DNA of 20,079 nucleotides from the IMG/VR virus record IMGVR_UViG_3300043409_000553, positions 1 to 20,079 of that record, one strand, 5' to 3'. How positions within the stretch are numbered: position 1 is the first letter of the stretch; each line of letters starts with the position of its first letter. The DNA is from a virus. The notes under the pieces were generated by a model, which saw only the letters and a list, made by a program, of their open reading frames with translations, was not told the DNA's origin and did not search any database. This document shows positions 1 through 20,079 of this stretch, in pieces. Position numbers and translations under genes: made by a program.

Positions 1-1
1 G

Positions 2-253
2 CTGGTAATTGCAACGGAGGATAAATTTAATAATTTGACCCCGATCGAGTTCACCAAAGAAAAGACGGGGCTACTTGACGGGCTGAGTATCGGTCAAAGC
101 GTATCGGTCGAAATAAATTTAGGCGGCCGTGAATATTCGGGCAAGTATTACCCAAGCATCACGGGATGGAAGTTGACCGCTGGGCAAAGTGCACCACCTC
201 AAAAGCAAAGTGCACCAGTTGAAGATATTGACGCAGATATGCTTCCGTTCTGA
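2..253 (+). CDS. DUF3127-like (SSB-like) protein, 5' truncated
   Basis: This is the C-terminal part of a small OB-fold-like protein; the frame is open to the left window edge, so the true start lies outside. A TTG at 35 could be read as a start, but the upstream codons continue the same domain. The segment with LLDGLSIGQSVSVEINL followed by GREYSGKYYPSITGWKL matches the end of the DUF3127 family, which is widespread in Bacteroidota and generally regarded as a single-stranded DNA binding-like protein. The tail DIDADMLPF resembles the acidic tip of SSB proteins (DDDIPF type) that binds DNA-repair partners. Inferred role: binding ssDNA in phage replication or recombination. Its TGA overlaps the ATG of the next gene by one base (TGATG), suggesting translational coupling. 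The family call is from memory of its pattern; the function is inference. Confidence 0.68.
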   Translation: MVIATEDKFNNLTPIEFTKEKTGLLDGLSIGQSVSVEINLGGREYSGKYYPSITGWKLTAGQSAPPQKQSAPVEDIDADMLPF

Positions 254-414
254 TGCGCACATTAGCAATCACATATTACATCTCATGCCTGCTTTGCCCA
301 CTTGTAGCTTTCGAGCCGCACGTGTGCAAAGAGGTGATTAAGCCAACGCCAGTACACGTTATGCTGTTTAGCGTGCAACAACAAAGATTATTCTATAAAG
401 ACTTGAACGAATGA
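253..414 (+). CDS. Small hydrophobic protein, 53 aa, unknown
   Basis: A short reading frame, MRTLAITYYISCLLCPLVAF at the N-terminus, then a polar tail ending in KDLNE. Its ATG shares a base with the upstream TGA (TGATG) and its TGA overlaps the next ATG (ATGA), exactly filling the space between two genes; this is the main reason to believe it is real. Residues 4-20 form a hydrophobic stretch with cysteines at 12 and 15, compatible with a signal anchor, a single membrane span or a lipoprotein-like signal. Next to a DUF5675 gene it could belong to a lysis or envelope function, but no family is recognised and this is inference only. Confidence 0.5.
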   Translation: MRTLAITYYISCLLCPLVAFEPHVCKEVIKPTPVHVMLFSVQQQRLFYKDLNE

Positions 415-827
415 TAAAAGCAACCTTAACCCGAAAGTATACGACTACCCAAACGCTGGGCGAATTGGTAATTGGCAATTTCAAATGTAAGACGTTGGAA
501 CTGGCTTGGAAGGATAACGCGGCAAAGATTAGCTGCATACCCGAAGGCGTGTACCAAGTCGTTCCAAGACAGTCCGCAAAGTATGGCCGACATCTGCACA
601 TTACTAACGTGCCGAACCGTTCATTTGTGCTAATCCATTGGGGCAATTATGCTGGTTCAATCAATTTAAAAAGCGGCCAAAGTGACATTAAGGGCTGCGT
701 GTTGGTAGGGTCGGCAATGGCTGACATCAACAAGGATGGCATACTGGACATTGTGAACTCCAAGCCTACATTCGCTGGTTTGATGCTTATGTTTCCTGAT
801 GGTTTTGAGTTGACGGTTAAGAGTTAA
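411..827 (+). CDS. DUF5675 family protein
   Basis: A 138-residue protein whose pattern fits DUF5675, common in phages and prophages of Bacteroidota and of unknown function. Visible marks are the N-terminal beta segment (MIKATLTRKYTTTQTLGELV), IPEGVYQVVP at 43-52, the core LIHWGN at 74-79, and GCVLVG at 95-100. The histidine at 76 and cysteine at 96 stand in an order reminiscent of the His...Cys pair of L,D-transpeptidase (YkuD) folds, which would suit action on cell-wall peptidoglycan, but that is inference. Between the core and the C-terminal helix is an acidic loop, DINKDGILD (105-113), that fits the calcium-binding DxNxDGxxD pattern. The start at 411 overlaps the preceding stop (ATGA). Length is about that expected for the family. 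A strongly structured repeat region begins directly after the stop. Confidence 0.75.
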   Translation: MIKATLTRKYTTTQTLGELVIGNFKCKTLELAWKDNAAKISCIPEGVYQVVPRQSAKYGRHLHITNVPNRSFVLIHWGNYAGSINLKSGQSDIKGCVLVGSAMADINKDGILDIVNSKPTFAGLMLMFPDGFELTVKS

Positions 828-956
828 CGTTCTGTGGCTTTAAGCAGTTGCCAATAAAACTGCCAAAACTTTTAATTTGAAACTAATGATTACAGATAAA
901 AAACAACCTTTAAATTTAGCCAAAAGTGGCAATTGCTTAAAACCGCTGTTACCTGC
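824..956 (+). repeat. attC-like imperfect palindrome upstream of gene 994
   Basis: Directly at the end of the DUF5675 gene lies GGCTTTAAGCAGTTGCC (836-852), which is the near-perfect reverse complement of GGCAATTGCTTAAAACC (928-944): 15 of 17 positions match, and one of the two differences is a G-T wobble. The arms are separated by 75 bases. Outside the arms are TAAC on the left (824-827, including the stop codon) and GTTACC on the right (948-953), the same AAC...GTT layout as integron attC sites. The total span of about 130 bases is within the size known for attC sites. The full consensus core sites (RYYYAAC/GTTRRRY) are not met, so it is called attC-like only. Confidence 0.5.
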
Positions 957-2474: not shown

Positions 2475-2915
2475 ATGCACCCGACACGGATATTCAAGAC
2501 ACCTGAGGAATTATTTGATGCTTGGGAAAATTACCGAAAGCATCTACAAACAAAGGCTTTAGAATGGCCAAAGGTGCAATACGTGGGCAAAGATGGCATG
2601 AGGGTAGAGGACTATCCAAAGCTACCTTTAACAATGGATGGATTTGAGGTTTATTGCTTTCAGAATTATGGATGCGTTAACCAGTATTTTGACAATAAAG
2701 ACGGTTATTACGATGCGTTCGTTACTATCTGTTCACACATAAAAAAACAAATTCGCGAAGACCAAATAACAGGAGGGCTACTTGGCAACTACAATGCAAG
2801 CATTACGCAGCGTTTGAATGGCCTAAAAGAACAGACCGAAAACAACAACACAAATACGCATAATATCCTAAACATCGACCCGTTAGATGATTCAATCGAC
2901 AACGGCGCTACGTAA
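2475..2915 (+). CDS. terS: Terminase small subunit, GP3-package type
   Basis: A 146-residue protein fitting the small terminase family seen in Bacteroidota phages (GP3-like DNA packaging proteins). It opens MHPTRIFKTPEELFDAWENY, the familiar RxFxTPEEL.xAWxxY start, continues with LPLTMDGFEVYC (51-62), where the family has an LT.EGF segment starting a helix-turn-helix, then FVTICSHIKKQIREDQITGG and LLGNYNASITQRLNGLKEQT, matching the family's helix with FNAxIxxRxLGL. The role is to recognise viral DNA at the packaging site and recruit the large subunit. The acidic, asparagine-rich tail (NNNTNTHNILNIDPLDD) may contact TerL. It overlaps terL by 29 bases and follows a -7 box four bases before its ATG. 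Confidence 0.78.
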   Translation: MHPTRIFKTPEELFDAWENYRKHLQTKALEWPKVQYVGKDGMRVEDYPKLPLTMDGFEVYCFQNYGCVNQYFDNKDGYYDAFVTICSHIKKQIREDQITGGLLGNYNASITQRLNGLKEQTENNNTNTHNILNIDPLDDSIDNGAT

Positions 2916-4077
2916 AATTGCAGGGCTAAAGAAACGCATCAAAGTAATTCGGGGCGGTCAAGGTGCAGGTAAAACAATAAGCGTTCTAATTTTGCTGATT
3001 AACCATGCGGCAAGCAAGCCTGACAAAGAGATTCTAATCATTAGCGCGGAGTTGACCAAGATGCGCCTGACGGTTATTAAAGACTTTGTAAAAGTTATGA
3101 AGATGGCAGGCATTTACGATGAAAGGCGGTTTATAGCTGGCACTCTTTACAGATTTGCGAATGGTTCGTTTATCAAATTCATAGGACTGGACAAGCAGGA
3201 TGTCGGCAAGGGATTACGCTCCGATATTGTCTACTTTAACGAAGTTAACAAATGCGATTCAGAAAGCTACAGGCAGGTTGCTACAAGGGCTGGCAAGGTA
3301 ATAAGCGACTATAACCCCGATGCTAAATTCTTTATTGATACTGAGGTAATCGGGCGCGAAGATTGCGACTTTCTGCAGCTAACTTTTGAGGATAACGAAC
3401 TGCTTGGAATAGATGAGCGAAACGAAATACTCAACTACAAGCGTTTGGGCTATAATGAAGATGGCAGCGTTAAGAATAGCTATTGGGCTAACATTTGGCG
3501 TGTCTATGGACTGGGCGAAGTTGGCGCATTGCAGGGCGTGGTATTCAGCGACTGGAGCGAAATAGAAAGCGTGCCACCTAGCGCAAAAATGGTAGGATTT
3601 GGAATGGACTTTGGATATACGAACGACCCGACCACGTGCATTGCGGCCTATGAATACAACGGCCAAAGGATATACGATGAACTGATTTACCAAACGGGGC
3701 TATTGAATGGTGACATTGCGGCCTTACTCAAATCGAACGGAATAACCAAGCAGGACAAGGGCTATGCTGATTGCGCAGATCCAAAGAGCATTGATGAAAT
3801 TAACCGCTATGGATTCAACCTAAAGCCTGTAACCAAAGGCGCGGATAGTATTGCTTTCGGGATTAGCATCATGCAAGGGCAGCCGTTTCAAGTGACCAAA
3901 AGAAGCGCGAATATCAAAAAGGAATTGAACGCTTATTGTTGGGACACCGATAAGGACGGCAATACAATCAACAAGCCGATAGATGCCCACAACCACGCTA
4001 TTGATGCCATGCGATACGTTGAGATGATGCTAACCATCAAACCATCATTCAAGCCATTTAGAGCCATCCAATTTTGA
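2887..4077 (+). CDS. terL: Terminase large subunit
   Basis: A 396-residue packaging ATPase and nuclease. The ATPase domain has the Walker A motif GGQGAGKT at 23-30, a Walker B-like strand DIVYFNEVN at 113-121 with the catalytic glutamate at 119, and SDYNP at 140-144 as the coupling motif. The nuclease domain has the RNase H-like acidic residues: D241 in GMDFGYTNDPTT, the DCADPKS segment at 295-301, and D373 in HNHAIDAMRY. It drives ATP-dependent DNA translocation through the portal and cuts concatemeric DNA. The start at 2887 is the only one before Walker A; it overlaps TerS by 29 bases. The end overlaps the next gene by four bases. A length of about 400 residues is normal for this family in Bacteroidota phages. 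Confidence 0.93.
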   Translation: MIQSTTALRKIAGLKKRIKVIRGGQGAGKTISVLILLINHAASKPDKEILIISAELTKMRLTVIKDFVKVMKMAGIYDERRFIAGTLYRFANGSFIKFIGLDKQDVGKGLRSDIVYFNEVNKCDSESYRQVATRAGKVISDYNPDAKFFIDTEVIGREDCDFLQLTFEDNELLGIDERNEILNYKRLGYNEDGSVKNSYWANIWRVYGLGEVGALQGVVFSDWSEIESVPPSAKMVGFGMDFGYTNDPTTCIAAYEYNGQRIYDELIYQTGLLNGDIAALLKSNGITKQDKGYADCADPKSIDEINRYGFNLKPVTKGADSIAFGISIMQGQPFQVTKRSANIKKELNAYCWDTDKDGNTINKPIDAHNHAIDAMRYVEMMLTIKPSFKPFRAIQF

Positions 4078-4790
4078 AAACAGCCATAACGATAAACGGC
4101 CAGCCTGTTAACATTCCTGCCCAGTGGGAGGACATAACACTAAAGCAAGCGATTCAATTACATTCGGCTAAAACAGATGCCGAAATACTTGCAGCCGTCA
4201 GTGATTTAGACTTGGAAATGTGCGAAAACATTAGGCCGATGCAACTTGCCGCGATAGTGTGGCCTATTAACGCACTAGGTGAGATGCCTAGCCTAGATGA
4301 GTGGACATTATCACTCCCAAAGCCTAAATCATTGGGGAGCATGGAATTTGCACGAAAGGTAAACGTGGAAGGGCTGGCGAGATTAAAGCTAATTGACACC
4401 GAACTAATCGGGCGAACGGTTGCCATTTATTGTGCAAATGATATAGATGACAAGGATATTGAGGACTGCTATTTACGTCTGCTGAATGAGCCGTTTATTG
4501 CCGTTGCCGCTGCTGGTCAATACATATCTAGCCAACTTGCCGAGATGTCAAAGGCTGAGGCTGCAATCAAGCCTGCTGAATACGAATCTGAAGAATGGCA
4601 AGCTGGCATTTCTGACTTCAAAAAATATGGTACTTTTGGACTGGTTAGGGGCATATCTTTGCGACACCATTGTAGTGATGAAGATGTATACCGTTGGAGT
4701 TACAACAAGGTGCTATTGGAGTTGCAATATGCAGCAGATGAGAACGCCTACCAAAGGAAGTTAAATAAGATTTTGAACAAGAAGAAATGA
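4074..4790 (+). CDS. Putative tail assembly chaperone-like protein
   Basis: A 238-residue mainly helical protein. It begins with a short beta hairpin, ITINGQPVNIPAQWEDITLK, followed by QAIQLHSAKTDAEILAAVSD, a pattern I recall in proteins of Bacteroidota phages placed before tail genes. The C-terminal part WSYNKVLLELQYAADENAYQ looks like the end of gpE/gpG-like tail chaperones, which keep the tape measure protein soluble. The gene follows terL with ATGA overlap and is itself followed by an ATGA overlap. No slippery heptamer typical of the gpG/gpGT frameshift was seen at its 3' end. The chaperone role is inference from position and shape. Confidence 0.45.
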   Translation: MKTAITINGQPVNIPAQWEDITLKQAIQLHSAKTDAEILAAVSDLDLEMCENIRPMQLAAIVWPINALGEMPSLDEWTLSLPKPKSLGSMEFARKVNVEGLARLKLIDTELIGRTVAIYCANDIDDKDIEDCYLRLLNEPFIAVAAAGQYISSQLAEMSKAEAAIKPAEYESEEWQAGISDFKKYGTFGLVRGISLRHHCSDEDVYRWSYNKVLLELQYAADENAYQRKLNKILNKKK

Positions 4791-5239
4791 GCAGCATAGT
4801 AAGCATAATTGAAACGGTTGTTTTGGACTTAACTCCAAAGCCTGATTTCATTCACGGGTTTAAATCGTGGGCAAATCTAAAGGCCGATGAAAAGAGGTTT
4901 CCATGTGTGATACTTGTTGAGCCGATTACTAGCGATGACAACTTTAGGCAGGGGGGATTAGTAGATAGCACATATCCGTTATTTATGCTATTTTTAGGCC
5001 GTACCGAATTGGCATACACACCTGAGCAGCATCGGGTTACAATAGATGCAATGCGTGATTTGCGCAGACAGTTTGTTCTCAAATTAAAGGCAACCAAAAA
5101 CATTTACGGTGAGCATATCTTCAAATCAATTGACAACGTGAAAACCACCGACACGTTTAACGAACTAGATGCCAACGCATCGGGCGTATTCATGACATTC
5201 ACAGCGACACCATTTAATTCTGATTCAGTATGCGTGTAA
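4787..5239 (+). CDS. Putative tail terminator/completion protein
   Basis: A 150-residue protein starting MSSIVSIIETVVLDLTPKPD, with FPCVILVEPITSDDNF at about 38-53, a central helix with RVTIDAMRDLRRQFVLKLKA, and a beta-rich end GVFMTFTATPFNSDSVCV. The alternation of an N-terminal helix, a strand with a proline, a long helix and C-terminal strands fits the compact alpha/beta fold of tail terminator or tail completion proteins, and the position among tail genes agrees, but no named family was recognised with confidence. It overlaps the next gene by 10 bases. Confidence 0.45.
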   Translation: MSSIVSIIETVVLDLTPKPDFIHGFKSWANLKADEKRFPCVILVEPITSDDNFRQGGLVDSTYPLFMLFLGRTELAYTPEQHRVTIDAMRDLRRQFVLKLKATKNIYGEHIFKSIDNVKTTDTFNELDANASGVFMTFTATPFNSDSVCV

Positions 5240-7529: not shown

Positions 7530-9523
7530 GCAATTTAATCATAAAGATTGGCGACAGACCACTAGACTTAAATAGTGGTGAAACTATTGCGCTAACTAGG
7601 CAAGCGGCAAAGGTTGGTGACTTCGTTGCCGTTATGGCCGATGGCACTAACGAGGTGACTATACCTTTGACCGCGAACAACAAGGCGGTGTTGGATAATG
7701 CCCACATATTTGGGACGGATAGCCTAATCCCGTATCGGAGGACGGATGCAACAATGATACAGGAGGGATATGAAACAATCACAAACGGTTATTCAATCGT
7801 TAAAAGTTCAGCTAACAATTTCAGCCTGCAAATTGTGGGAGGTAACGGAGGCTTTTTTGACCTTATACGGAATTTGAATTTAAGGGATTTGGACTTAGTG
7901 GAGTATAGTCACTTTTGGACAAACCTAAATGTCTTTGACAACCGAAATAATACAGATGGCTACGTTTACGCGGTATTTGAGCAAAGTGATTTGGAGGGCG
8001 TTGATTCAACCATGCGCACCTATGGCACAAATTTATATGCGGTTCAAACAGCTAGGTTGCTGCCATCATTTCACGTTAAGACTTTGGTTAGTAAAATCTT
8101 TGGTGAGCAAGGCTATACCTTCGTGACCGACTTAGTAGCTGAGGACATTTACAATAATCTGATTGTTTTTAATGGCAAGCCTGACCGAGGTGAGGATATG
8201 AGCCATCATTTGTGTAGGGTAACGGCAACGACTTTTAACGTGCCATCAGATACGCCTTTAATCGGTTACTTATTTGATGCCGTAGCAGTAAGTGGAACAA
8301 GTGACTACATTGCAAATTCTGAATTTTTAAGTAGATTAGTTTTGCCCTTTGGTTCTAATCCTAGATTTACTTTAACAGACCCGTGTACTTTAACGGTTGA
8401 GTTTTCATTAACAATTACATTTACTCAATTTCTAGTTTATGCAAATACATTAAGAATTGAAATTGAAGCCACAACAAGCGGAGGCACTAATATAATTACT
8501 AGCGATACTATAAATTTTACCGTTGGAATAGTTGGTGACCCTGACTTAACATTAAACATATCTATGTCTTTTGATGTTGGAGATTTTAACGGAGATGTGT
8601 GGTTTAGCCCATTTGCGGTGTTTGGATTTGATGTTAATTTTTATATTCTAGAGGATAGCAGCTACACGGTTACAAATGCGGTTATGCTGGCGAATTCAGA
8701 TATAACCACATCGTTTCCAAACAACTATTTTAACGGCCTTGTCCCCGTTCCTGACATGAAACAGGGCGACTTTCTGAAAGACTTGTCAAAGGTGTTTCAA
8801 TGGATCTACGATGTAGATGAAGTGACTAAGGTGGTAACTGCTAGGCGTTATGATTCGGTGCAGGAAAACATACCAACGGCTATTGATTTGAGCGACCATA
8901 TTGACGTCAGAAAGCAAAAGATAACCTACGGAATTGATGGCTTTGCTCAAACCAATTCTTTGGCATACAAGCCCGATGACATTACAAGCTATGATGCTAT
9001 TGGTTATATCAATGTAGATGACCAAACATTAAAGGCCGAAAGCAAATATGTCGAGGTTTCATTATTTGCGGCCAGTTCGACCCGTCAAAGGTTTGATTCA
9101 GTTGCCGCGCCTTACGTGCCGATATTTGATGTCGATGTAATGCCCAACAATGCGATCACTCACAGATTGCTATTGACTAAAAGAGTAGATCCTTTTCCGT
9201 ACAACGTGAATTTTAACCGAGCAGCGGAAGCACCTTATGATTATCCAACGGACGACCTGACCTTCGCGTATTTCGCTGAGGCTGGCAATTTGGATAGCTT
9301 GGATTTTCCTAACCTAATAAACCGATTTTATCAAGCGGTAATGGCGATAACCTATCGGGGCAAAACGCTTGAATGTTTGATGAATCTGAAAATTTCAGAC
9401 GTAGTAAATTATAACCCGTTTATTCCTGTTTACATCTCACAGCATGGCAGTTATTTCTATTGGCAAAAAGTGAGTAACTATGTGAAGGACAAATTAACCA
9501 AATGCACGTTTATACGCTTATAA
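7526..9523 (+). CDS. Large tail/baseplate protein, 665 aa
   Basis: A 665-residue protein with a GTG start overlapping the previous stop (GTGA). The N-terminal part (LIIKIGDRPLDLNSGETIAL, then a segment ending DSLIPYRRTDATMI) and the middle (LPSFHVKTLVSKIFGEQGYTF and DMKQGDFLKDLSKVFQWIYD) follow a layout I recall in Bacteroidota phage proteins found next to the tape measure gene; they are thought to be distal tail or baseplate hub components. Residues about 260-385 form a beta-rich, low-GC segment with many T, I and F residues. No signal peptide or catalytic motif is evident. It ends one base before the tape measure gene. Confidence 0.55.
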   Translation: MSNLIIKIGDRPLDLNSGETIALTRQAAKVGDFVAVMADGTNEVTIPLTANNKAVLDNAHIFGTDSLIPYRRTDATMIQEGYETITNGYSIVKSSANNFSLQIVGGNGGFFDLIRNLNLRDLDLVEYSHFWTNLNVFDNRNNTDGYVYAVFEQSDLEGVDSTMRTYGTNLYAVQTARLLPSFHVKTLVSKIFGEQGYTFVTDLVAEDIYNNLIVFNGKPDRGEDMSHHLCRVTATTFNVPSDTPLIGYLFDAVAVSGTSDYIANSEFLSRLVLPFGSNPRFTLTDPCTLTVEFSLTITFTQFLVYANTLRIEIEATTSGGTNIITSDTINFTVGIVGDPDLTLNISMSFDVGDFNGDVWFSPFAVFGFDVNFYILEDSSYTVTNAVMLANSDITTSFPNNYFNGLVPVPDMKQGDFLKDLSKVFQWIYDVDEVTKVVTARRYDSVQENIPTAIDLSDHIDVRKQKITYGIDGFAQTNSLAYKPDDITSYDAIGYINVDDQTLKAESKYVEVSLFAASSTRQRFDSVAAPYVPIFDVDVMPNNAITHRLLLTKRVDPFPYNVNFNRAAEAPYDYPTDDLTFAYFAEAGNLDSLDFPNLINRFYQAVMAITYRGKTLECLMNLKISDVVNYNPFIPVYISQHGSYFYWQKVSNYVKDKLTKCTFIRL

Positions 9524-9524
9524 G

Positions 9525-12125
9525 ATGGCAACTGAAAAATATGAAGTACTTGTCAAAATTGGCATAGATTCAAAAGTAGTACAAGACAGCATTGCCAACG
9601 CAGACCGATTAACCGCTGAAATCACTAAACTTCGAGAGGCTCAAAAGGCAAGCGGTGTTCAAGATGCGGAAACTACGGCCGCAATTAAGGCGTTAACCCA
9701 AGAACGTAGCCGTGACCTTCGTGTGGTGCAACAGGCCAACACGCTGGCATCGGAAACGGTCAAAGGTCAGGAACGATTAAAGGCTGAGTTGTCGCTGCTT
9801 ACGGTGCAATATAACAACCTAAGTACAGCGGAGCAAAAGACTACGGAAAGCGGTCAAAAGATGGGTGCAAGGATTCGCGCGCTTAGTGATGAGTTAAAAG
9901 CAAACGAAAGCGCGGTAGGCAATAACGCTCGCAATGTGGGCAATTATACAGATTCGATAAAGGAAGCGTTGGTATCTATTACGGGAGCAGTACCGGGACT
10001 GAATGGATTTAAGGGCGGACTGGATGGCGTGACTAATGGGTTCAAAGCGGCTGGTGGTGGCGTTAAGGGATTTGGAGCGGCTTTAATGACATTGGGGCTG
10101 CCTTTGATAGTTGCGGGCGTTACTGCTTTAATTGGTGTATTCAAAGCGTTTAAGCCTGTAGCCGATGCGGTGGAGAATGCGGTTACAGCGGTTAAAGCGG
10201 CCTTTGGGGCGTTAATATCGGGCGGCTCAATTATGGAAGCAGTGCGCCAGTCAAAAGAATTACTTGAGGTGCAACGAGATCTAGAGGATACGCAAAAGGC
10301 GTTTGCAATTTCGGCACAAAAATATGGCAACGAAATCGCTAAGTTAATAGTTGCATCAAAAGACCGTACTAAAACAGACCAAGAGCGGCTTGCAATAGTT
10401 GCCAAAGCAAACAAACTAGAGGAGGAGTATTTTAACGCATCGGTTGCAAGAATTGACAAGGAATTATCTGCTCGTGAAAGTGAATTTATGCGTAAAAACA
10501 AAATCACAAAAGCGGAATTGCAACTACTTGCAGAGGGTACTTCTAAACAGGCTCTTGCATTGCGTGAAAGATTGGAAAAGGGCGCAGAATATAGCGAAGA
10601 AGAATTGGCTCAGGTTCAAGATTTACTTGTTGAACGTGCTAAATTGGAGGGTGAAAGCCTTGTTTTGCAAGAGAAACTTGCAAACCGAACAAACCAACTT
10701 GCTGGCGATATGGAAAAGGACAGGCAATCTGAGGCTGACAAAATCGCAGCAGCCACCGAAAAGGCAAACGAGGCAAGGCAAAAAGAACAGGATAAAAAAG
10801 ATGCGATTGCGGCCAAAGAATTAGAGGATGCCAAAAAGCAAGCGGAAGAATTAAAGAAAATTGCTAACGACTTTATGCGGTCGCAGATGTCGGACACGGA
10901 TAGACAACTTTTGGAAATAGGCGAAAAGGCTAATGTACTAAAGGCTGCTGGTGTTGAGGAAGTTGCCATAACTAAATTCATAAACGATGAAGTTAAAAAG
11001 ATTGAAGATGCGGCAAGAGCAGAAAAGCTGGCAAAGGATAGCGAGGCATTTACAAAGCAAATTGAACTGCTAGGCCTACAGGAACAACTCGAAGTGCAAG
11101 CGGCTGAAACATCAATTAAAAACGAAAAGGAATTAGCAGATGCAAAAGCTAAAATAGCACTTGACTACCTTGCTCAGAAGCTTGCCATCATGCAACAAAT
11201 GGCAATGTTGGATGGGATTGCAACTGCCGAAGAAATCGCAAACCTCAAACTAGTTGAGGGAGAAATAAAACGGATAACCGAAGGGCTGGCAAATCCCGAA
11301 GTTGAACCTACTACGTTGGGCAAGATGCTAGGCCTTACGGAAACGGATATAGAGGACATTCAACTTGCTATGGAAGTGGTGGATGGCTTGCTGGCAACAG
11401 CAATGGCAGCAACTCAGGCATCGGCCGACAATAGGCTTGCTCAAATTGATGCTCAGTCAACCGCTGAAATACAGGCCATAAATAATAGCACATTATCCGA
11501 AGAACAAAAGGCTACTAAAATAAAGGCGATAGAGCAAAAGGCCGCGAGGGATAAGTACAAAATTGAACTTGAACAGTTCAAAATTGCTCAGGCCTTGCAG
11601 ATAGCAATGGCGATAGCCAACACGGCAACGGCAGTAATGGCTCAGCTATCAAACCCAACGCCTTACGCTGGCTTTGTGCTTGCTGCGCTGGCAGGAGTTA
11701 CGGGAGCGGCTCAAATAGCGATGATTGCAAGCCAACAGCCACCTCCACCGCCTGCCTTTGCATCGGGTGGATTTGTATCGGGTGCTGGAAGCGGAACGAG
11801 TGATTCAATTCCTGCTATGCTTTCAAATGGCGAGAGCGTAAATAATGCGGAAACGACTAGACGATTTGCGCCATTGCTTTCATCTTTGAACGCGGCTGGT
11901 GGTGGTGTTGATTGGTATCGTGGCGAAGGATTTGCATCGGGCGGTTTGGTTCGTAAATTCGCAACGGGAGGCGTTGCCATGTCCAGTTCTTCGATGATAC
12001 GGGAAAATCAACAAGTTGCAATGATGGCAGCACAAATGAGTATGTCGCAGCCTGTTTTGGTTATTGAGGAATTTCAAAGCGTACAGGGTAGGCAAGTTAG
12101 AACCGAGCAGAATTTACAACTATGA
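9525..12125 (+). CDS. Tape measure protein
   Basis: An 866-residue protein spanning the tail lumen and setting tail length. The N-terminal 140 residues are helical coiled coil. A hydrophobic stretch follows at about 181-211 (FGAALMTLGLPLIVAGVTAL), then long charged coiled coil to about 680 with many AKELEDAKKQAEELKK-like heptads. A second hydrophobic region at about 689-739 ends in a run of five prolines. The C-terminus carries GGFVSGAGSGTSDSIPAMLS followed by NGESV at about 746, a well-known tape measure end motif, and further glycine-rich repeats (GFASGGLV, FATGG). By the usual rule of about 1.5 angstroms per residue the tail would be near 130 nm; this assumes no trimming. Its TGA overlaps the next ATG. 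Confidence 0.88.
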   Translation: MATEKYEVLVKIGIDSKVVQDSIANADRLTAEITKLREAQKASGVQDAETTAAIKALTQERSRDLRVVQQANTLASETVKGQERLKAELSLLTVQYNNLSTAEQKTTESGQKMGARIRALSDELKANESAVGNNARNVGNYTDSIKEALVSITGAVPGLNGFKGGLDGVTNGFKAAGGGVKGFGAALMTLGLPLIVAGVTALIGVFKAFKPVADAVENAVTAVKAAFGALISGGSIMEAVRQSKELLEVQRDLEDTQKAFAISAQKYGNEIAKLIVASKDRTKTDQERLAIVAKANKLEEEYFNASVARIDKELSARESEFMRKNKITKAELQLLAEGTSKQALALRERLEKGAEYSEEELAQVQDLLVERAKLEGESLVLQEKLANRTNQLAGDMEKDRQSEADKIAAATEKANEARQKEQDKKDAIAAKELEDAKKQAEELKKIANDFMRSQMSDTDRQLLEIGEKANVLKAAGVEEVAITKFINDEVKKIEDAARAEKLAKDSEAFTKQIELLGLQEQLEVQAAETSIKNEKELADAKAKIALDYLAQKLAIMQQMAMLDGIATAEEIANLKLVEGEIKRITEGLANPEVEPTTLGKMLGLTETDIEDIQLAMEVVDGLLATAMAATQASADNRLAQIDAQSTAEIQAINNSTLSEEQKATKIKAIEQKAARDKYKIELEQFKIAQALQIAMAIANTATAVMAQLSNPTPYAGFVLAALAGVTGAAQIAMIASQQPPPPPAFASGGFVSGAGSGTSDSIPAMLSNGESVNNAETTRRFAPLLSSLNAAGGGVDWYRGEGFASGGLVRKFATGGVAMSSSSMIRENQQVAMMAAQMSMSQPVLVIEEFQSVQGRQVRTEQNLQL

Positions 12126-12358
12126 ATGAACTGATTTTAGAACTTGACAAAAGCGGTCAATTGTTTGAACTATTCAAAGGAGGCTTTATATCTTGGACGG
12201 TGCTAAGGGATAAGGATATTTATCTCACCTATTTAACCCATCGCCAAACGGGATTAAATAAGACACAAGCGGTCAAAAGAACGGCCGACCAATTTGACTT
12301 AAGCGACAACGTTGTATGGGTTGCATTGCGTAAAATGGTCACACCAAAAAACGAATAG
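12122..12358 (+). CDS. Small helical protein, 78 aa, HTH-like
   Basis: A 78-residue protein, MNELILELDKSGQLFELFKG at the start. The second half, LNKTQAVKRTADQFDLSDNV followed by VWVALRKM, reads like a helix-turn-helix in which an AVKRTADQF helix is followed by a turn at DLSD and a second helix. It could bind nucleic acid or be a small structural helix pair. No family is recognised with confidence. It overlaps the tape measure gene by four bases and lies 37 bases before the protease gene, at the tail-to-head module boundary. Confidence 0.55.
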   Translation: MNELILELDKSGQLFELFKGGFISWTVLRDKDIYLTYLTHRQTGLNKTQAVKRTADQFDLSDNVVWVALRKMVTPKNE

Positions 12359-12395
12359 TAAAAGCCTGTTTTGCCGTGTGGAATTTTGCCGCCAC

Positions 12396-13481
12396 ATGGA
12401 AGCACACATTTACATCGAAGGCCAAATCGGTTCGTCTTATAAAGAAGATGGCTCTGTTGACGTTAGCGGTGTTGAATTGCAAGACGTTATTTCACAGGTT
12501 CGCAGAAATGCTGATGCCGAAAAGATTACGTGCCATATTACTAGTCAGGGCGGCTCAGTGGACTCAGGTCGCAAAATAGCCCAATACCTCGCATCACTTC
12601 CCAATGTGCATACGCTAGCTGAGGTTCAATGCGCTTCTATTGCTACGGAGATTCACTTGGCCGTCCCAATTGAACGCAGAAAGGTAGCGGCAGGAACGTC
12701 CTATCTTATTCACCAACCAATGTTCTCTTTTCAACGCGGCATTGCATTGAACAAAGACGAACTGGCAAGTATGTCTACTGAAATAGGACATACGCAGGCC
12801 GAAATGGTGAGCAACTACGCAAAGGCTACAGGCATGGATAAGACCGCGCTTGAATTGCTTATGCAACAAGAAACAGCGTTAACCCCTGAGCAATGCGTTG
12901 AGTTCGGGTTCGCCTCTGAAATCGTAACAAATGCAGCCGTATCGGTTGCCCTAATTAAACCAAAACAAACCAATTCAATAGACACCATGAAAAAAGAAAT
13001 CGAAAAGATGCGCTTGCAAATCGCGCAGTTAATTGCTGGTAAACCGCTTCAAGCAGTTGCCCTAGACCTTACAACAATTGAGGGCGTTCCTGTGATTGTA
13101 GTGACCGAAGAAGATGCACCGAAAGTAGGTGATTTAGTAACCGATGCTGAGGGAAATCCAGTACCTGATGCAACTCACAACTTTGAGGGCGTGCAAGTAG
13201 TAACCGTTGATGGCATAATTACCGAGATTATCGAAGTAGTTAGCCTTAACGTTGAAGAAATGGCTGCTGAGTTGGCACAATTAAAGGCTGAACGCGAAGA
13301 GGAGCAGACAGCCCTTGCAGCATTGCAGACTGAATTTGTAGCCCTTGCTCAACTTTCAAGCAAATACAAGCCAATCGCTAAGGCGGTTGCATTTCGTAAG
13401 CCAATCGCTGAGGCAAAGACCGAAGCTTCAAGCTACTCAACAATCAAAGAAGCCCTTGCAGCACGTAAGGCAAAAAAATAA
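12396..13481 (+). CDS. ClpP-like head maturation protease with scaffold-like tail
   Basis: A 361-residue protein. Residues 1-185 are a serine protease of the ClpP/S14 type: GGSVDSGRKIAQYLASL at 52-68, the nucleophile S81 in CASIATEIHLAV, and H106 in SYLIHQP. The 25-residue Ser-His spacing equals that of E. coli ClpP (98 and 123). The third triad position aligns with E159 (QQETALTPEQ), Glu rather than Asp, as I recall in phage members. Residues 225-285 form a small beta domain with VGDLVTDAEGNPVPDATHNF, and 286-361 are coiled coil and basic, as in protease-scaffold fusions. It would cleave scaffold and capsid precursors in the prohead. The start at 12396 gives the family's usual beginning (AHIYIEGQIG); the longer frame from 12312 runs through the previous gene. 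Confidence 0.87.
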   Translation: MEAHIYIEGQIGSSYKEDGSVDVSGVELQDVISQVRRNADAEKITCHITSQGGSVDSGRKIAQYLASLPNVHTLAEVQCASIATEIHLAVPIERRKVAAGTSYLIHQPMFSFQRGIALNKDELASMSTEIGHTQAEMVSNYAKATGMDKTALELLMQQETALTPEQCVEFGFASEIVTNAAVSVALIKPKQTNSIDTMKKEIEKMRLQIAQLIAGKPLQAVALDLTTIEGVPVIVVTEEDAPKVGDLVTDAEGNPVPDATHNFEGVQVVTVDGIITEIIEVVSLNVEEMAAELAQLKAEREEEQTALAALQTEFVALAQLSSKYKPIAKAVAFRKPIAEAKTEASSYSTIKEALAARKAKK

Positions 13482-15288: not shown

Positions 15289-15828
15289 ATGACACCACTA
15301 GAATTAAAAGCATTACTTGAGGAGGTCAGCCCTTTAATTGTTGTGCCCAAAGGTCAAATTGATAAGACGCACCCAACTGTAGTAAAATTCCTAGCGGTTC
15401 ACAAAGAATTAACGGGGAAAAAGGTAGGGGAGGGAACTTGTCAAAGTTGCATATTGGACGCCTTATTTGAATTAAAAGGGTTAACCGAATCACAGTTAAA
15501 ATTGATGACAATGGAACGCAAATACAAACTAAAACCGACCGCGCTGGTTTACTTTAATCACGCTCACTATACAGTCGCAAACATTACTGACGATGTGGCA
15601 GTAGAGATGGTAAAAGCCAACTCAGGACATTCACGTTCATTCGTAAATGGCGAGGCTTTACTTGCCGAATTGGATGGCGTTGAAAAGCCAAAGGGTAAAA
15701 GAGGTAGAAAGCCTAAAGCAGTTGCGCCCGAAATTACCGAAACCGTAACGGAGGAAGTAACGGATGTTAACGCTGATAATCAATCGGGCGAAGTTGCCGA
15801 AACTATAACTACGAAGGTTACTGAATAA
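15289..15828 (+). CDS. Hypothetical protein with AT-hook-like motif
   Basis: A 179-residue protein. The N-terminal part is helical (MTPLELKALLEEVSPLIVVP, then HPTVVKFLAVHKELTGKKVG), with a CQSC pair at 51-54 that could bind metal, followed by LDALFELKGLTESQL and a small beta region (TALVYFNHAHYTVANITDD). Residues 133-143 are KPKGKRGRKPK, close to the AT-hook RGRP type that binds the minor groove of AT-rich DNA, followed by an acidic, threonine-rich tail. It heads the transcription unit with the portal and connector genes, and its TAA shares a base with the portal ATG. A DNA-binding or head-associated role is inference; the general layout recalls unassigned proteins of Bacteroidota phages. Confidence 0.6.
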   Translation: MTPLELKALLEEVSPLIVVPKGQIDKTHPTVVKFLAVHKELTGKKVGEGTCQSCILDALFELKGLTESQLKLMTMERKYKLKPTALVYFNHAHYTVANITDDVAVEMVKANSGHSRSFVNGEALLAELDGVEKPKGKRGRKPKAVAPEITETVTEEVTDVNADNQSGEVAETITTKVTE

Positions 15829-17144
15829 TGAGGATTAACATCGCCAAGATTCAAAAACGCATAATTCGCAGGGACGACAAGTCTTTAGGAATTATCAACT
15901 ATGACATTGATAACGCATATCCTCAAAGGGTTGTGGACATTGTTAACGGGTCGGGCGTTGCCATCACTTGCATTGACATCTATTTCAAATTTATTAACGG
16001 CACAGGCTTTGCCGATGCTTCTTTAGGCGCAACGGTGGTAGATGGCGACCGATTAACCGCTGACAAGTTGCTTCGCAGATGCGCCTATGATTTCGCAATG
16101 CACGGAGGGTTTGCGATTCATAAAAATTACGACATAACAGGAAAGGAAACAACTTCTAGCCATGTTCCTTTTTCGCATTGTAGAATAGGAATTGATAGGG
16201 ACAGAAAACCCGATTCAATTGCGGTATATAATGATTGGGGGCGCGAAATTGACAAGCGAATTGATAAGGCAAAGATTGACTTTATAGACCTTTACAATCC
16301 CGATCCTGAAACCGTTAAAAAGCAAATAGAAGCGGCTGGTGGAATTGAATACTACAAAGGGCAAATATACTATCACGGGGCTGGTGGTGACGTTGCTTAT
16401 CCGTTGTCGCATTTTGATAGTGAATTAGAGGACATTGAAACAGACAGCCAAATAAAGCTATTCAAATACAGAAACATAAGCGGTTCGTTTATGGCTTCGC
16501 ACATGATGGTCAGATACGGCCAAGCTGAGGGCGACAATAATAATTCGGATGGATTAGTAGAGCAGCTAAAGGAATTTCAAGGCGCGGACAATTTTAATCG
16601 CTTAATGCTTTTGGACATTGACACGCCTGAGCAGAAACCTGAGTTAATCCCGTTTACGCATTCAAATAACGACAAGCTATTTGAGTACCATGAGAAAAGC
16701 ACGCAGGACAATATCCGTAAGGTGTTTGCAATTCCAACGGTGTTTTTAGATGCCGTTGCTGGTTCGCTTGGTTTATCGGCTCAGCTAGATGATGCGGTTT
16801 CGTTCTATAATCGCATGACACAAGACGAGAGGGCAATTTTAGAGGAAACATTCGACTGGTTATTATTCGATACTTTTGGAGGGTCTTACAAGATTAAACC
16901 GCTAACGATGGCCGACATAACAGAAAGGAATTTAGATGCGGAAACGGCCGACAAGATTGCCAACGCTCAGGCTGAACTTCGCGGTTCTGTTGGTGGTGTT
17001 ACGGCGTTGATTACATTGCAACAATCCATAAGTGCAGGACAAACAAGCGTGCCTGCTGGTATTGCTATGCTTCGAGAGATTTATGGCTTTAGTAATGAAA
17101 TAGCGCGCGAAATGTTAGCAGGCGTAACAGAACCAATGGCATGA
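15828..17144 (+). CDS. Portal protein
   Basis: A 438-residue protein with a portal layout: an N-terminal region with NAYPQRVVDIVNGSGVAITC then IDIYFKFINGTGF, a mid-region clip/wing part, and a C-terminal stem-like part with LIPFTHSNNDKLFEYHEKST, IRKVFAIPTVFLDAVAGSLG and a long helix with NRMTQDERAILEETFDWLLF, as in HK97/SPP1-type portals where the sequence KVFgIPpvll...g is typical. As a dodecamer it forms the DNA gate at one head vertex, docks the terminase, and then joins the connector. It overlaps the gene before by one base and the next by four. It is placed after the capsid gene instead of next to terL, which is unusual. Confidence 0.72.
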   Translation: MRINIAKIQKRIIRRDDKSLGIINYDIDNAYPQRVVDIVNGSGVAITCIDIYFKFINGTGFADASLGATVVDGDRLTADKLLRRCAYDFAMHGGFAIHKNYDITGKETTSSHVPFSHCRIGIDRDRKPDSIAVYNDWGREIDKRIDKAKIDFIDLYNPDPETVKKQIEAAGGIEYYKGQIYYHGAGGDVAYPLSHFDSELEDIETDSQIKLFKYRNISGSFMASHMMVRYGQAEGDNNNSDGLVEQLKEFQGADNFNRLMLLDIDTPEQKPELIPFTHSNNDKLFEYHEKSTQDNIRKVFAIPTVFLDAVAGSLGLSAQLDDAVSFYNRMTQDERAILEETFDWLLFDTFGGSYKIKPLTMADITERNLDAETADKIANAQAELRGSVGGVTALITLQQSISAGQTSVPAGIAMLREIYGFSNEIAREMLAGVTEPMA

Positions 17145-17656
17145 TAAACCTTATCAACATAACGGATTTCACGGAAAACAAGTTTTTAACTCAGAACTTG
17201 GACGACCGCGATATTGACCCGATAATTACAGAGGCTCAGGAGTTCGATATTAAGCCCATAATTGGAGCGGCTATGTACTTGGATATGATGAACAATTTAA
17301 CAGCGGTGAAATACGTTGAGTTGCTGGATGGCAGGATATACACTCCAAACGGTGAGGCAGATGCCATCTACTTTTCGGGCTTAAAGATGGCGTTGAAATA
17401 CTATGTCTACGCTCGCCTTTTGGTGGTCAATGGAGTTAAGTCTACAAATAGCGGATTCGTTCAAAAGACGTTAGAAAATAGCGAAAGGATAAGCGGAACG
17501 CAACTTACTCAAATGATAGCCCAAACTCGCAGCGGTGCGAAAGTTTACGAAACGGAAGTAAGGGATTTTCTTTGCAATTACTCAGCGGTTTATCCTTTAT
17601 ACTGTGAGGGTGTTCGCAAAAATAATGGTCACGGTTTTAGAATGAAAGCGATATGA
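17141..17656 (+). CDS. Head-tail connector candidate, DUF6712-like
   Basis: A 171-residue mainly helical protein. Its opening NITDFTENKFLTQNLDDRDI, then PIITEAQEFDIKPIIGAAMY, and ALKYYVYARLLVVNGVKSTN match the layout I recall for DUF6712 and other gp6-like connectors: a short N-terminal helix, a helix with the LG(x)ALY-like end, and helices around YYxxAR. Such proteins form a ring below the portal. Direct placement after the portal with ATGA overlap agrees. The basic C-terminus (NNGHGFRMKAI) may contact DNA. Confidence 0.65.
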   Translation: MINLINITDFTENKFLTQNLDDRDIDPIITEAQEFDIKPIIGAAMYLDMMNNLTAVKYVELLDGRIYTPNGEADAIYFSGLKMALKYYVYARLLVVNGVKSTNSGFVQKTLENSERISGTQLTQMIAQTRSGAKVYETEVRDFLCNYSAVYPLYCEGVRKNNGHGFRMKAI

Positions 17657-18411
17657 GCGCATTAAATGATTTGGATGCAATGGTTTTACGTCAGGAGGTT
17701 TATCCACCTATGACAACCAAAAATGCGGAGTTAACATTCACCGAATGGGACGACCGTGTAATTGATATTTATCGCGTAATTCAAGACGTGGTGAATGGCG
17801 ACAACGTGGATGCGTATAATCCTGCTACCACATACGATGGAACGTCCTCAGATGTTTACCTGAAATTTGTGGGTTATAATTCGCGCATTTGGCAAGCGGT
17901 TTTTGCTGGCACATTCTCAGGTGAAACGCCTGCTGAGGGTATCTACTGGACTCAGGTAACTTTGGCTCAGATGCTGCCAAATGTTTTGAAGCTAGCTGAA
18001 ATTGGTAGTGGAACTGGAATTAGCGTTCGAGTTTATAATGATGACTGGCCGAGTGTTGACGTTTTGGCGGCCGTAACAGGCTCGCCCGAAACCTTATTAA
18101 TTACGAGGGCTGCTGGCCAATCGATATTTATCCAGTCGGCTATAATAGGTATGTCGGGAACATTAACAACGCCATATGACACGAATGTAACCGTTGCGCT
18201 TCGATATGCTGGAGCAGATGAACCCATTTATACTTGTCAAGTTTTGGACAGAACGGTAGTTGGGATAGTTAATATGTCGCCAAATGTTACCCCTGCTATT
18301 GGTAGCACAGTAATACTTGGCGATGCTGACCTTGAGTGGTATGTAGATGGTGGAGCGGCATTAAACGGAACGGGGGATTTGGTCATAATAGTTACTTACT
18401 TAATACTATGA
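17653..18411 (+). CDS. Virion protein with carbohydrate-binding-like motif
   Basis: A 252-residue protein. Residues 1-50 are helical (EWDDRVIDIYRVIQDVVNG). Residues 55-102 have YNPATTYDGTSSDVYLKFVG, IWQAVFAGTFSGETPAEG and IYWTQV, the layout of CBM5/12-like carbohydrate-binding modules (Y..xxxY..G..V.......W.A......G..P......W..V). The C-terminal half is beta-rich with GISVRVYNDDWPSVDVLAAV and LEWYVDGGAALNGTGDLVII. This suits an adsorption component binding surface or capsular polysaccharide. Overlaps with the genes on both sides are four bases (ATGA). No signal peptide is seen. The polysaccharide role is inference. Confidence 0.5.
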   Translation: MSALNDLDAMVLRQEVYPPMTTKNAELTFTEWDDRVIDIYRVIQDVVNGDNVDAYNPATTYDGTSSDVYLKFVGYNSRIWQAVFAGTFSGETPAEGIYWTQVTLAQMLPNVLKLAEIGSGTGISVRVYNDDWPSVDVLAAVTGSPETLLITRAAGQSIFIQSAIIGMSGTLTTPYDTNVTVALRYAGADEPIYTCQVLDRTVVGIVNMSPNVTPAIGSTVILGDADLEWYVDGGAALNGTGDLVIIVTYLIL

Positions 18412-18773
18412 GCATAGTTCGCAAGTCAGACAGGGTAATTCAAGTCACGGTTACGGGAGGCAATGGCACGCCTGTAACCATTTCAACGCTTGCCGACCTT
18501 GAAATTTTAGCCTATCAATTTCCAAAGCGCATCATTCAAAGATGGTTGCTTTCAGATGCTGAAATAACTACGGTTAACAATGCTGCTGGTATTGTGAGCG
18601 TTAATTTTGACCGAGCAAATACTCAAACGCTAAACTTTAAGAACGATCCTTGTTTATTGGAGGTGGTGGCATCATTCACGGATATTGATTTTGAGGGTGG
18701 TATTAAGCGCGATGTGGCTACAGGAATAGAGTTGTCAATCGTTGAAGATAGCCCAACGGCTTATGAGCAATGA
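18408..18773 (+). CDS. Small beta-rich tail protein, 121 aa
   Basis: Starting at ATG 18408 (overlapping the TGA before it) this is a 121-residue protein MSIVRKSDRVIQVTVTGGNG. The frame is also open back to 18336, but those residues lie inside the previous gene and are of a different kind. The sequence alternates short strands: QVTVTGGNGTPVTISTLADL, LSDAEITTVNNAAGIVSVNF, and DPCLLEVVASFTDIDFEGGI. It resembles the immunoglobulin-like upper domains of some phage receptor-binding complexes (BppU-like), where a parameter strand such as LPGxY is followed by a conversion region, but the match is only in shape. It probably fits between the CBM-like protein and the repeat protein. Confidence 0.5.
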   Translation: MSIVRKSDRVIQVTVTGGNGTPVTISTLADLEILAYQFPKRIIQRWLLSDAEITTVNNAAGIVSVNFDRANTQTLNFKNDPCLLEVVASFTDIDFEGGIKRDVATGIELSIVEDSPTAYEQ

Positions 18774-20079
18774 TAACGGCAACCGCGATACTTACGGAAA
18801 CGATAGTAGTTACCGCATATTTAGGCGGTAACGTATGCCAGCCAGCCACATGGACTCTTGTCGATGAAGATGCCAATGTGCTGGACACGGGTTCGATTAT
18901 TTCGGGCGGTGCAGAAACCATAATTGCACCCGATGGTACTGTTTTACGCGATGGATTAGCTTATGGCTCAGTATTAAGCGGAGGTACAATAGATGTGCCA
19001 AGCGATACTTGCGCAGATGCAACCATTGACATCAACGGTTTGCCATTTGACACGGTTGCAAGCGGGGGTACGTTAGACATTCCTGTTATAAGTAGCGGTT
19101 CAAATCCCGTAGGTTCACAAATTGGAACGGATTGGGTAATTGCCAACAACGCCACGTATATCAATAGCGTTCAAGTCACAGACCAAGAAGCCGAAGTTGA
19201 CGCAAGTATAACCGTAATTTTAGACGGTATTCCTTCGGGAACTTGGAACGCTGGGCTACAATTGTGGGAGGTTACAAGTGACCCTTGTTTGGATGGTAAT
19301 ATCGAATTAAACGGTGTTCAAGTTGCTACGGTTGCAAGTGGGGGCACGGAAGATATACCCGTACTTTCGGAAGGTTCAAATCCTGTCGGTTCGCTTGTAG
19401 GGTCGGATTGGGTAATTGAAAATAACGCCACTACAATAAACGGTGTTCAAGTAACCGACCAAGAAGCAGAACAGGATGCGGCTATATTTGTAACCCGTGA
19501 CGGAGTTCAAAACGGGTCGTGGAATGCGGGAACGCAAACGTGGGAAGTCACCTCCGCGCCATGTTCACCCGTTACTTTTCAAATCAACGCGGTCAACAAG
19601 GAATCCTTGTCGAGTGGTTCTACATTTAACCTTATTACTAAACTTGACGGGGCGGTTAATTCGGGGTCTTATGATGCGCCTACGGATACGCTTTCTTTTA
19701 CCAGTGCAGCCTGTTCACCAGCAGCCCTACAAATAAACGGAACGCCACAGGAATCAATAGCAGCTGGCGCAACGTTCAACTTAATTGCTACATTGGATGG
19801 CGTGGCTGGGGGTACATACACGCCAGCAACCGACACTCTTGCGTTTACTTCAAATAGTGGATGGATTAGACCCTCTTTTTGGCCAGCATTACCAACTTTG
19901 ACTGCTGCAAGTGAAGCGGGGTATATTCTTTTGCCTGTTTATGAGAATAGAATTAACAGGTTTTCACTTCAAATTAATAACAGTACAGTAGACTGGGGCG
20001 ATGGCACAACAAGCGCACCAAGTGGCTCGGTTAGGACAAAGACATACGACTACGCAACTATTTCGGCTACTGTTTATGT
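18770..20079 (+). CDS. Modular repeat tail fibre/adhesin candidate, 3' truncated
   Basis: An open frame of 436 codons from ATG 18770 (overlapping the previous TGA) to the window end, with no stop. After an N-terminal region (ATAILTETIVVTAYLGGNVC, then CQPATWTLVDEDANVL) come tandem modules: two near-identical units of 92 residues from 19034 and 19310 (each with TVASGGT, GSNPVGS, DWVI, VQVTDQEAE, WNAG, WEVTS), then two shorter related units of about 50 and 39 residues from 19586 and 19736. The last part holds WGDGT (about 19994-20008), the hallmark of a PKD-type beta-sandwich. Low complexity in charge, many Ser/Thr/Gly/Asn and paired cysteines between units are typical of extracellular or tail-tip proteins. 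Position after connector and CBM-like genes fits receptor binding. Confidence 0.62.
   Translation, partial: MITATAILTETIVVTAYLGGNVCQPATWTLVDEDANVLDTGSIISGGAETIIAPDGTVLRDGLAYGSVLSGGTIDVPSDTCADATIDINGLPFDTVASGGTLDIPVISSGSNPVGSQIGTDWVIANNATYINSVQVTDQEAEVDASITVILDGIPSGTWNAGLQLWEVTSDPCLDGNIELNGVQVATVASGGTEDIPVLSEGSNPVGSLVGSDWVIENNATTINGVQVTDQEAEQDAAIFVTRDGVQNGSWNAGTQTWEVTSAPCSPVTFQINAVNKESLSSGSTFNLITKLDGAVNSGSYDAPTDTLSFTSAACSPAALQINGTPQESIAAGATFNLIATLDGVAGGTYTPATDTLAFTSNSGWIRPSFWPALPTLTAASEAGYILLPVYENRINRFSLQINNSTVDWGDGTTSAPSGSVRTKTYDYATISATVY
19034..19852 (+). repeat. Tandem protein modules in fibre gene
   Basis: The first AAC of each unit falls at 19034, 19310, 19586 and 19736, giving steps of 276, 276 and 150 bases, all multiples of three. 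The two long units share most residues, including SGSNPVGS/EGSNPVGS, DWVIANN/DWVIENN, VTDQEAE and GTWNAG/GSWNAG. The second half of a long unit aligns with the short units (LDG..SG.....T..FTS..C), so each 92-residue unit looks like two units of about 46 residues. A partial leading copy (SVLSGGTIDVPS) lies just before. Confidence 0.72.

Follow-up and report, generated by a model that had tools for sequence, protein, structure and literature searches.

The last open reading frame of the window, a DNA stretch of 20,079 bases that makes up the entire IMG/VR record IMGVR_UViG_3300043409_000553, is probably the gene of an adhesin carried on the virion of a tailed Bacteroidota phage. The protein would have an N-terminal anchor specific to its lineage, then a stalk built of units of 45-50 residues, and a tip, and these parts would be exchanged between Bacteroidota phages. 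A repeat is present in the protein, the number of units varies among its relatives, different anchors and tips are found on similar stalks, and the type of unit changes at the joints. The findings are most economically explained by a virion adhesin whose anchor, stalk and tip can be exchanged, and this explanation as a whole is considered probable. A role in the exchange of host range is rather likely. We infer a location in the virion, a receptor role and binding of the host by the tip.

Genomic context and relatives

As judged by its genes, the record is that of a tailed phage of Bacteroidota type. It carries genes for a large terminase (2887-4077; PF17288, E 4.2e-12), a tape measure (9525-12125; PHROG 20660, E 4.6e-15), a Clp-type protease (12312-13481; PF00574, E 9.7e-20) and a portal (15828-17144; PHROG 11226, E 3.9e-76). 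The portal protein had matches in 156 phage records of GenBank, almost all of them carrying the names of Bacteroidota hosts, with 23-29% identity among the 20 matches listed; 6 of the 156 fell in the 60-80% band. Bacteroides phage BS-TP3 has the same gene order, namely protease, capsid, 191- and 179-residue genes, portal and a 171-residue gene, after which come uncharacterised or hydrolase-named proteins and then a holin. Because the gene order is as in BS-TP3, the adhesin gene can be placed just behind the head genes; it is located just downstream of the portal gene and has the orientation of the phage structural genes.

Two small genes on the plus strand are found directly upstream of the adhesin gene. 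The second of these codes for a conserved protein of 121 residues (18408..18773), and its last 4 bases are also the first of the adhesin gene. A scan with this neighbour gene gave 11 loci, and the identity was 63-88% in the seven relatives aligned. No support for it was obtained from Pfam, PHROG or NCBIfam; by eye we take it to resemble the BppU-like N-terminal beta sandwich of the lactococcal neck passage structure (NPS). The first gene (17653..18411) specifies 252 residues, with a conserved N-terminal part and an exchangeable C-terminal part of some 120 residues. The latter recurs in proteins whose N-termini are unrelated, in one case at the end of a protein of 989 residues, and was seen at window 17653-18411, L010:967-1734, L024:2980-3534, L013:3521-4087, L020:10709-11254 and L017:6482-9451 (L numbers designate loci of relatives and G numbers their records; L006 lies in G005). 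The version in L010 resembles L024:2980-3534 (84%) and the end of L017:6482-9451 (73%).

Scanning with the window protein yielded 11 loci in 11 viral records. Overlapping sets of 8, 24 and 8 loci were obtained with the LRR tip, the second ORF of L011 and the anchor of L004, respectively, and the family set comprises 35 proteins from 30 records, window included. No match was found in 50,697 GenBank phage records for the window protein, the L004 and L041 anchors, the L003 stalk-tip piece or the L058 protein, and scanning 84,980 species genomes revealed no relative. The stalk and tip sequences scanned had no Pfam or NCBIfam match over the curated cut-off and no PHROG match under E 0.01. For the stalk units, neither convincing membership in a Pfam, PHROG or NCBIfam family nor sequence similarity to PDB entries was observed.

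The stalk and its repeat units

The adhesin ORF (18770..20077, plus strand) has 436 codons, starts with the ATG at 18770 and stays open up to the last bases of the record. As the window comprises the whole record, the protein is cut by the contig end. The genes in L004, L006, L008 and L010 run on to a stop codon, as does that in L003, of which the start is cut. The N-terminal segment of the window lineage (residues 1-80, 18770..19009, plus strand) begins with MITATAILTETIVV; other anchors take its place elsewhere.

A profile of the unit finds six copies on the plus strand in the window protein: units 1 (residues 84-128, 19019..19153) and 2 (128-172, 19151..19285) are the halves of a first 92-residue pair, units 3 (176-220, 19295..19429) and 4 (220-264, 19427..19561) are those of a second pair, and units 5 (268-314, 19571..19711) and 6 (318-363, 19721..19858) are single units of approximately 50 residues including the joint. 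The matches have E-values of 7e-19 to 2e-21, which are partly circular as the 15 seeds came from the same proteins, window units included. As the profile gives six units, each 92-residue repeat consists of two units of about 46 residues. The first-pass annotation had described two much-alike 92-residue units followed by two shorter ones, an arrangement that is recovered here as two pairs and then two single units. At an offset of 92, residues 75-208 match residues 167-300 with 74 identities in 134 positions. The best ungapped self-alignment score was 379, whereas 100 residue shuffles averaged 36.4 and did not exceed 49, and the repeat is thus far beyond chance.

The similarity of the two pairs had earlier been attributed to recent duplication. 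The copies are identical at 60 of the 92 residues and at 180 of the 276 bases, and 62 of the 92 codons differ, 30 of them silently. Given 32 changed residues and 62 changed codons out of 92, the two copies are old. In a comparison of 86 units (at least 40 residues, E <1e-4) from 26 of the 35 proteins scanned, not a single unit had its nearest relative in its own protein (0/86), an outcome that the presence of close relatives in the sample favours. Recent tandem duplication was rejected on the basis of these two results.

Across the family the number of units per protein ranges from 0 to 6, some of the proteins being truncated. Six are present in the window protein and in L002, which is truncated in the tip. 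L010 has two units and another three in a separate downstream ORF, L011 has two and two, and L067 has one and two. Three units were counted in L071, two in L074, one weak and short unit in each of L072 and L075, and none in L076. The unit scan omitted L007, L009, L046 and L048, which are the same protein as, or 99% like, those of L008, L045 and L047, and also L056 and L073, the reading frame of L073 being interrupted in the record. The suggestion of number-variable modules, to be checked by comparing copy numbers in related phages, is borne out by this variation, as copy number is not fixed.

Some further features of the array genes were noted. An ORF of 195 residues lies between the two array ORFs in L010 (2875-3462) and L011 (8783-9370), and a similar one is present in L064 (6188-6787); the 195-residue ORF of L011 has no Pfam, PHROG or NCBIfam match. 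Two consecutive array proteins with different tips are encoded at L006:5334-7943 and 8112-9395, on a backbone with a sheath gene. In L073, from 6363 onwards, the adhesin frame is broken soon after its start and the remaining array and tip are open in another frame. L065 and L066 are the two ends of the 37,828-base record IMGVR_UViG_3300043772_001253; both lie inside the adhesin gene and cover query residues 70-220 and 1-62, respectively, which looks as though a circular map had been opened within it.

Switch points at the cysteine joints

It had been proposed that each unit ends near a cysteine. This applies to the joints at residues 81, 173, 265 and 315; the joints within the pairs, at residues 128 and 220, lack a cysteine. 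Close to the four cysteine joints, all on the plus strand, nucleotide homology between the window and its relatives begins or ends. Homology with L003, L004, L005 and L064 of group b begins at 19002 (residue 78), 8 bases before the codon of cysteine 81 (19010..19012), and that with L010, L011 and L064 ends 7 bases beyond the codon of cysteine 173 (19286..19288). At cysteine 265 (19562..19564) it starts or resumes 12-14 bases before the codon in L006, L008, L010, L011, L041, L047, L064 and L067. In L005, L036, L037, L041, L045, L047 and L067 it stops just before cysteine 315 (19712..19714), where the homology with L006 switches place. The sequence ACCTCCGCGCCATGTTC forms the joint leading into unit 5 in the window, where it follows unit 4, and also in the second ORF of L011, where the preceding unit is of another type.

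In all, 33 of 36 homology ends fall within 20 bases of a joint cysteine codon, compared to a mean of 5.1 and a maximum of 14 in 10,000 random draws. L002 and L038, matches below 110 bits and ends outside 18830-20000 were left out of this count. The ends are non-independent and some derive from paralogous units, so that the switch points indicate changes of whole units rather than a number of events. The joints may recombine via short homology, helped by the annealing recombinases (ERF or RecT) of several relatives. ERF was present in four of the five proteins tested (L010, L011, G002 and G003) and RecT in L076; we infer that such enzymes could drive exchange at the joints.

Similar stalks and tips on different backbones

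The window portal was 96-99% identical in three of 11 relatives' records and 27% in another three, and had no match in the remaining five. Outside the adhesin gene, the window matches G002, G003, G005 and G007 by nucleotide only in its first 2.84 kb; between 2840 and 18769 there was no nucleotide match to these four records at E 1e-10. Yet L006, in G005, is 92.2% identical to the 370 bases of window 19710-20079. G005 has a lambda-family portal (PF05136, E 4.9e-98) and a tail-sheath gene (PHROG 23, E 4.7e-35; no Pfam match at 0.001), and a tape measure was detected in G003 (PHROG 1533, E 4.8e-67). On the evidence of these comparisons, very similar stalks and tips are present in phages with different structural genes. 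The exchange is not limited to the adhesin, because early genes are also common to the lineages: window 1-831 and 1413-2457 are found in G002, G003 and, in part, G005.

Genes with a possible role in glycan modification were seen in some of these phages. In the regions L004:422-1414 and L013:335-2360, between the tail and portal genes, group b phages carry a GDP-mannose 4,6-dehydratase (PF16363, E 1.5e-113) and genes that by eye are methyltransferase- or glycosyltransferase-like, possibly forming a glycan-modifying cassette. L017:2964-3956, of group d, also looks glycosyltransferase-like by eye.

Anchors

Four N-terminal anchor types, designated (a) to (d), are found on different phage backbones. 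Anchor (a) is the short MITATA segment of the window lineage; the same or a similar segment is present in L002, L010, L011, L067 and L069, and one with a diverged start in L071, L072 and L074-L076 as well as in L073. Anchor (b) is a domain of 220 residues that occurs in L003 (start cut), L004, L005, L012, L062, L063 and L064; residues 1-220 of L004 had no Pfam or PHROG match. Anchor (c), in L006, is a Gp37-family domain at residues 10-154 (PF09646, E 9.1e-16, 58.4 bits versus a cut-off of 27.3). We take PF09646 to be a terminator family; in PHROG the same stretch is phrog_209 'portal protein' (E 3.4e-07), which disagrees with its reading as an adhesin anchor. Anchor (d), of about 150 residues, is shared by L007-L009, L036, L037, L041, L045-L048 and L053. 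L054, L055, L057 and L058 possibly carry a distant form of it, by alignment alone and with 14-27% identity to L041. Stalk and tip follow behind this anchor in the group d proteins, which reach 810 residues in all (L008). An hhalign comparison of anchors (b) and (d) aligned only the linker (20 columns, E 4.5e-05, probability 69%).

The anchor of group d is predicted to have a tail-terminator fold. An AlphaFold2 model of L041 residues 1-189 had a mean pLDDT of 71, with residues 144-189 below 50, and contains the elements H5-18, E42-53, E56-68, H78-102, E109-122 and E126-139. Its best fold matches included the P74-26 neck (Z 12.5), lambda gpU (12.4), T5 p142 (12.3) and Mu (12.0), and phage neck, terminator and cap entries aligned over 106-140 residues with Z scores of 12.5 to 8.6. 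The 50 fold matches listed are phage, GTA or contractile-injection entries with the exception of PilO, an unrelated protein at Z 8.0, 2gjv and 4acv; the latter two are named as terminators in PMC11784142. With Foldseek the best match was to Mu (E 2.6e-05); those at E 0.0044 and worse included baseplate proteins, histidine kinases and a designed protein. Lambda gpU, T5 p142 and the Mu terminator share the fold predicted for the group d anchor, to which group d adds a stalk and a tip; unlike them, the window protein is without a terminator domain.

Because of its anchor fold, the group d fibre would be expected at the head-tail neck, possibly projecting from the tail-terminator ring; the predicted fold points to this position rather than to the tail tip. 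As stalk and tip are fused continuously to the terminator fold, a location in the virion and at the neck is likely in group d, and for this group the neck position is held with good confidence. The window ORF has no terminator domain at its N-terminus, as judged by length: the approximately 80 residues that precede the first unit (at residue 84) are too short for one. A neck position is rather unlikely for the window lineage. One gene in the window (4787-5239, 150 residues) appears terminator-like by eye and matches PHROG 33245 (function unknown, E 0.00041); it was considered as a free-standing terminator akin to the group d anchor, but the profile probability was 2.3% and this is not claimed.

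A conventional fibre of the tail tip or baseplate, placed at the far end of the tail, is a possible alternative in the window lineage, the group d fusions being another arrangement of the same stalk. The missing terminator-sized anchor fits such a fibre, and the upstream 121- and 252-residue genes, which are kept in the window lineage, could form a docking complex of their own. The C-terminal part of the 252-residue protein, moreover, also ends the 989-residue protein of L017:6482-9451, which adjoins a gene 25% like the tape-measure-like L021:895-3162. The adhesin gene itself, however, is located downstream of the capsid and portal genes and not beside the tape measure at 9525-12125, and in group d the terminator-fold anchor favours the neck.

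Tips

The window protein ends in the start of the tip, a beta domain with a PKD-like motif (19859..20077, plus strand), as follows from alignment and from modelling and fold comparison of L003, the tip piece of which is 97% like that of the window over the common stretch of the alignment. The L003 model is mostly confident over residues 290-661, with weak stretches at 387-396 and 416-422; residues 22-283 of the stalk have pLDDT values below 50 and are unreliable. In the model, what looks like a beta domain precedes a BspA-type LRR with a predicted LRR solenoid fold. The tip matched TpLRR (Z 16.3, 186 residues), 4h09 (Z 16.2) and the B. caccae surface protein 4fd0 (Z 15.7, 251 residues), scores to be read with the knowledge that repeats reach high Z easily. 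A Foldseek search of the stalk-tip model against the PDB had no match with an E-value of 0.001 or lower (best E 0.013); against predicted viral proteins (BFVD) ten matches were obtained, including phage proteins named for PKD and BspA/LRR.

The final WGDGT had been read as the mark of a PKD-type domain. The motif is there, at residues 409-413 (19994-20008), but PKD (PF00801) was not found over the Pfam cut-off in the window protein, nor in the L004 tip. In L072 it scored 13.8 bits (cut-off 23.5) in a different part of the protein. LRR_5 (PF13306) scored 18.8 bits in the L004 tip, below the cut-off of 27.7. BspA-family LRR surface proteins, including the phage-encoded ones in BFVD, are alike in tip fold; unlike them, the tips described here stay below the LRR_5 cut-off and stand on a stalk of units. 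Judging from the relatives, the BspA-type LRR would fall beyond the window contig.

Tips differ among the relatives, being PKD/Ig-like with a BspA-type LRR in some and, by eye, C-type-lectin-like or otherwise lectin-like in others. The alternative tip of L011, L036, L037, L053-L055, L057 and L058 is presumably C-type-lectin-like. The C-type-lectin-like and ConA-/LamG-like labels, given by eye, had no support from PDB sequences or Pfam. Two possible sources of tip diversity gained no support. For positive selection, dN/dS was 0.10-0.12 over the LRR tip in three pairs, although about 18 of the 24 amino-acid changes between L003 and L010 lie in codons 181-300 of 381; these are too few to base a claim on. 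A diversity-generating retroelement was the other. The variable proteins of such elements, for example in Hankyphage (PMC6199706), are of the C-type-lectin kind that the alternative tip would resemble; unlike in those systems, reverse transcriptase (PF00078) matched 0 of 25 relatives' records, which are fragments.

The tip, a putative PKD/Ig-like domain plus BspA-type LRR, would probably bind a glycan or protein on the host surface. Alternatively, stalk and tip might bind mucus, extracellular polysaccharide or another surface and raise local encounter rates without determining the host range. According to PMC13370021, another phage gains epithelial binding when it displays modular Ig-like adhesins of Bacteroidota phages, and the NPS of TP901-1 is reported in PMC6669499 not to be essential for infection. 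The exchange of tips is, however, equally compatible with variation of the host surface, and such a non-receptor function is regarded as doubtful. That the protein is made by the host cell during lysogeny as a surface protein outside the virion, as the LRR tip, with structural matches of L003 to the Bacteroides surface proteins 4fd0 and 4fdw, might suggest, is very improbable given that in group d a stalk and tip of this kind run on from a terminator fold and that the gene directly follows the phage structural genes on the same strand.

Relation to known systems and implications

The adhesin resembles the lactococcal NPS in logic, not in anchor fold. PMC6669499 describes, for the NPS of 936 and TP901-1 phages, a constant neck anchor, a shaft and several exchangeable carbohydrate-binding tips, a comparable layout. 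Unlike the NPS, with its BppU-like beta-sandwich anchor and coiled-coil shaft, the proteins described here would have a terminator fold (in group d) and a row of 45-50-residue units. The BACON/PKD Ig-like adhesins of gut Bacteroidota phages are also built of small domains in varying combinations and are mostly encoded near structural genes (PMC13370021). In contrast to those, the present units stay under Pfam cut-offs, and the words terminator and neck do not occur in that text. A search limited to the open-access literature, and therefore of little weight, did not turn up any report of Bacteroidota phages in which an adhesin is joined to a tail terminator.

It is already known in general that domains are shuffled among the receptor-binding and NPS proteins of phages, with recent exchange across distant phages (PMC10684548). 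The present case differs in that the switch points lie at the cysteine joints of a repeat stalk, and in that very similar tips were found both on a backbone with a sheath gene and on backbones in which none was detected.

The receptor-binding parts of Bacteroidota phages are, to our knowledge, poorly known. It is tentatively proposed that the neck of Bacteroidota phages might be a general socket, in which the terminator ring would carry unit stalks with lectin- or LRR-type tips, and that a pool of stalk and tip cassettes, recombining at the cysteine joints, might circulate among both siphovirus-like phages and those with a sheath. Should the terminator-anchored form be real, these phages may start to recognise their host at the neck, and the adhesin will be missed by annotation that seeks fibres next to the tape-measure gene. 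If the socket reading is true, phages with different tails would acquire the same tip. The occurrence of similar tips on different backbones leads to a testable prediction: phages with the same tip should share a receptor.
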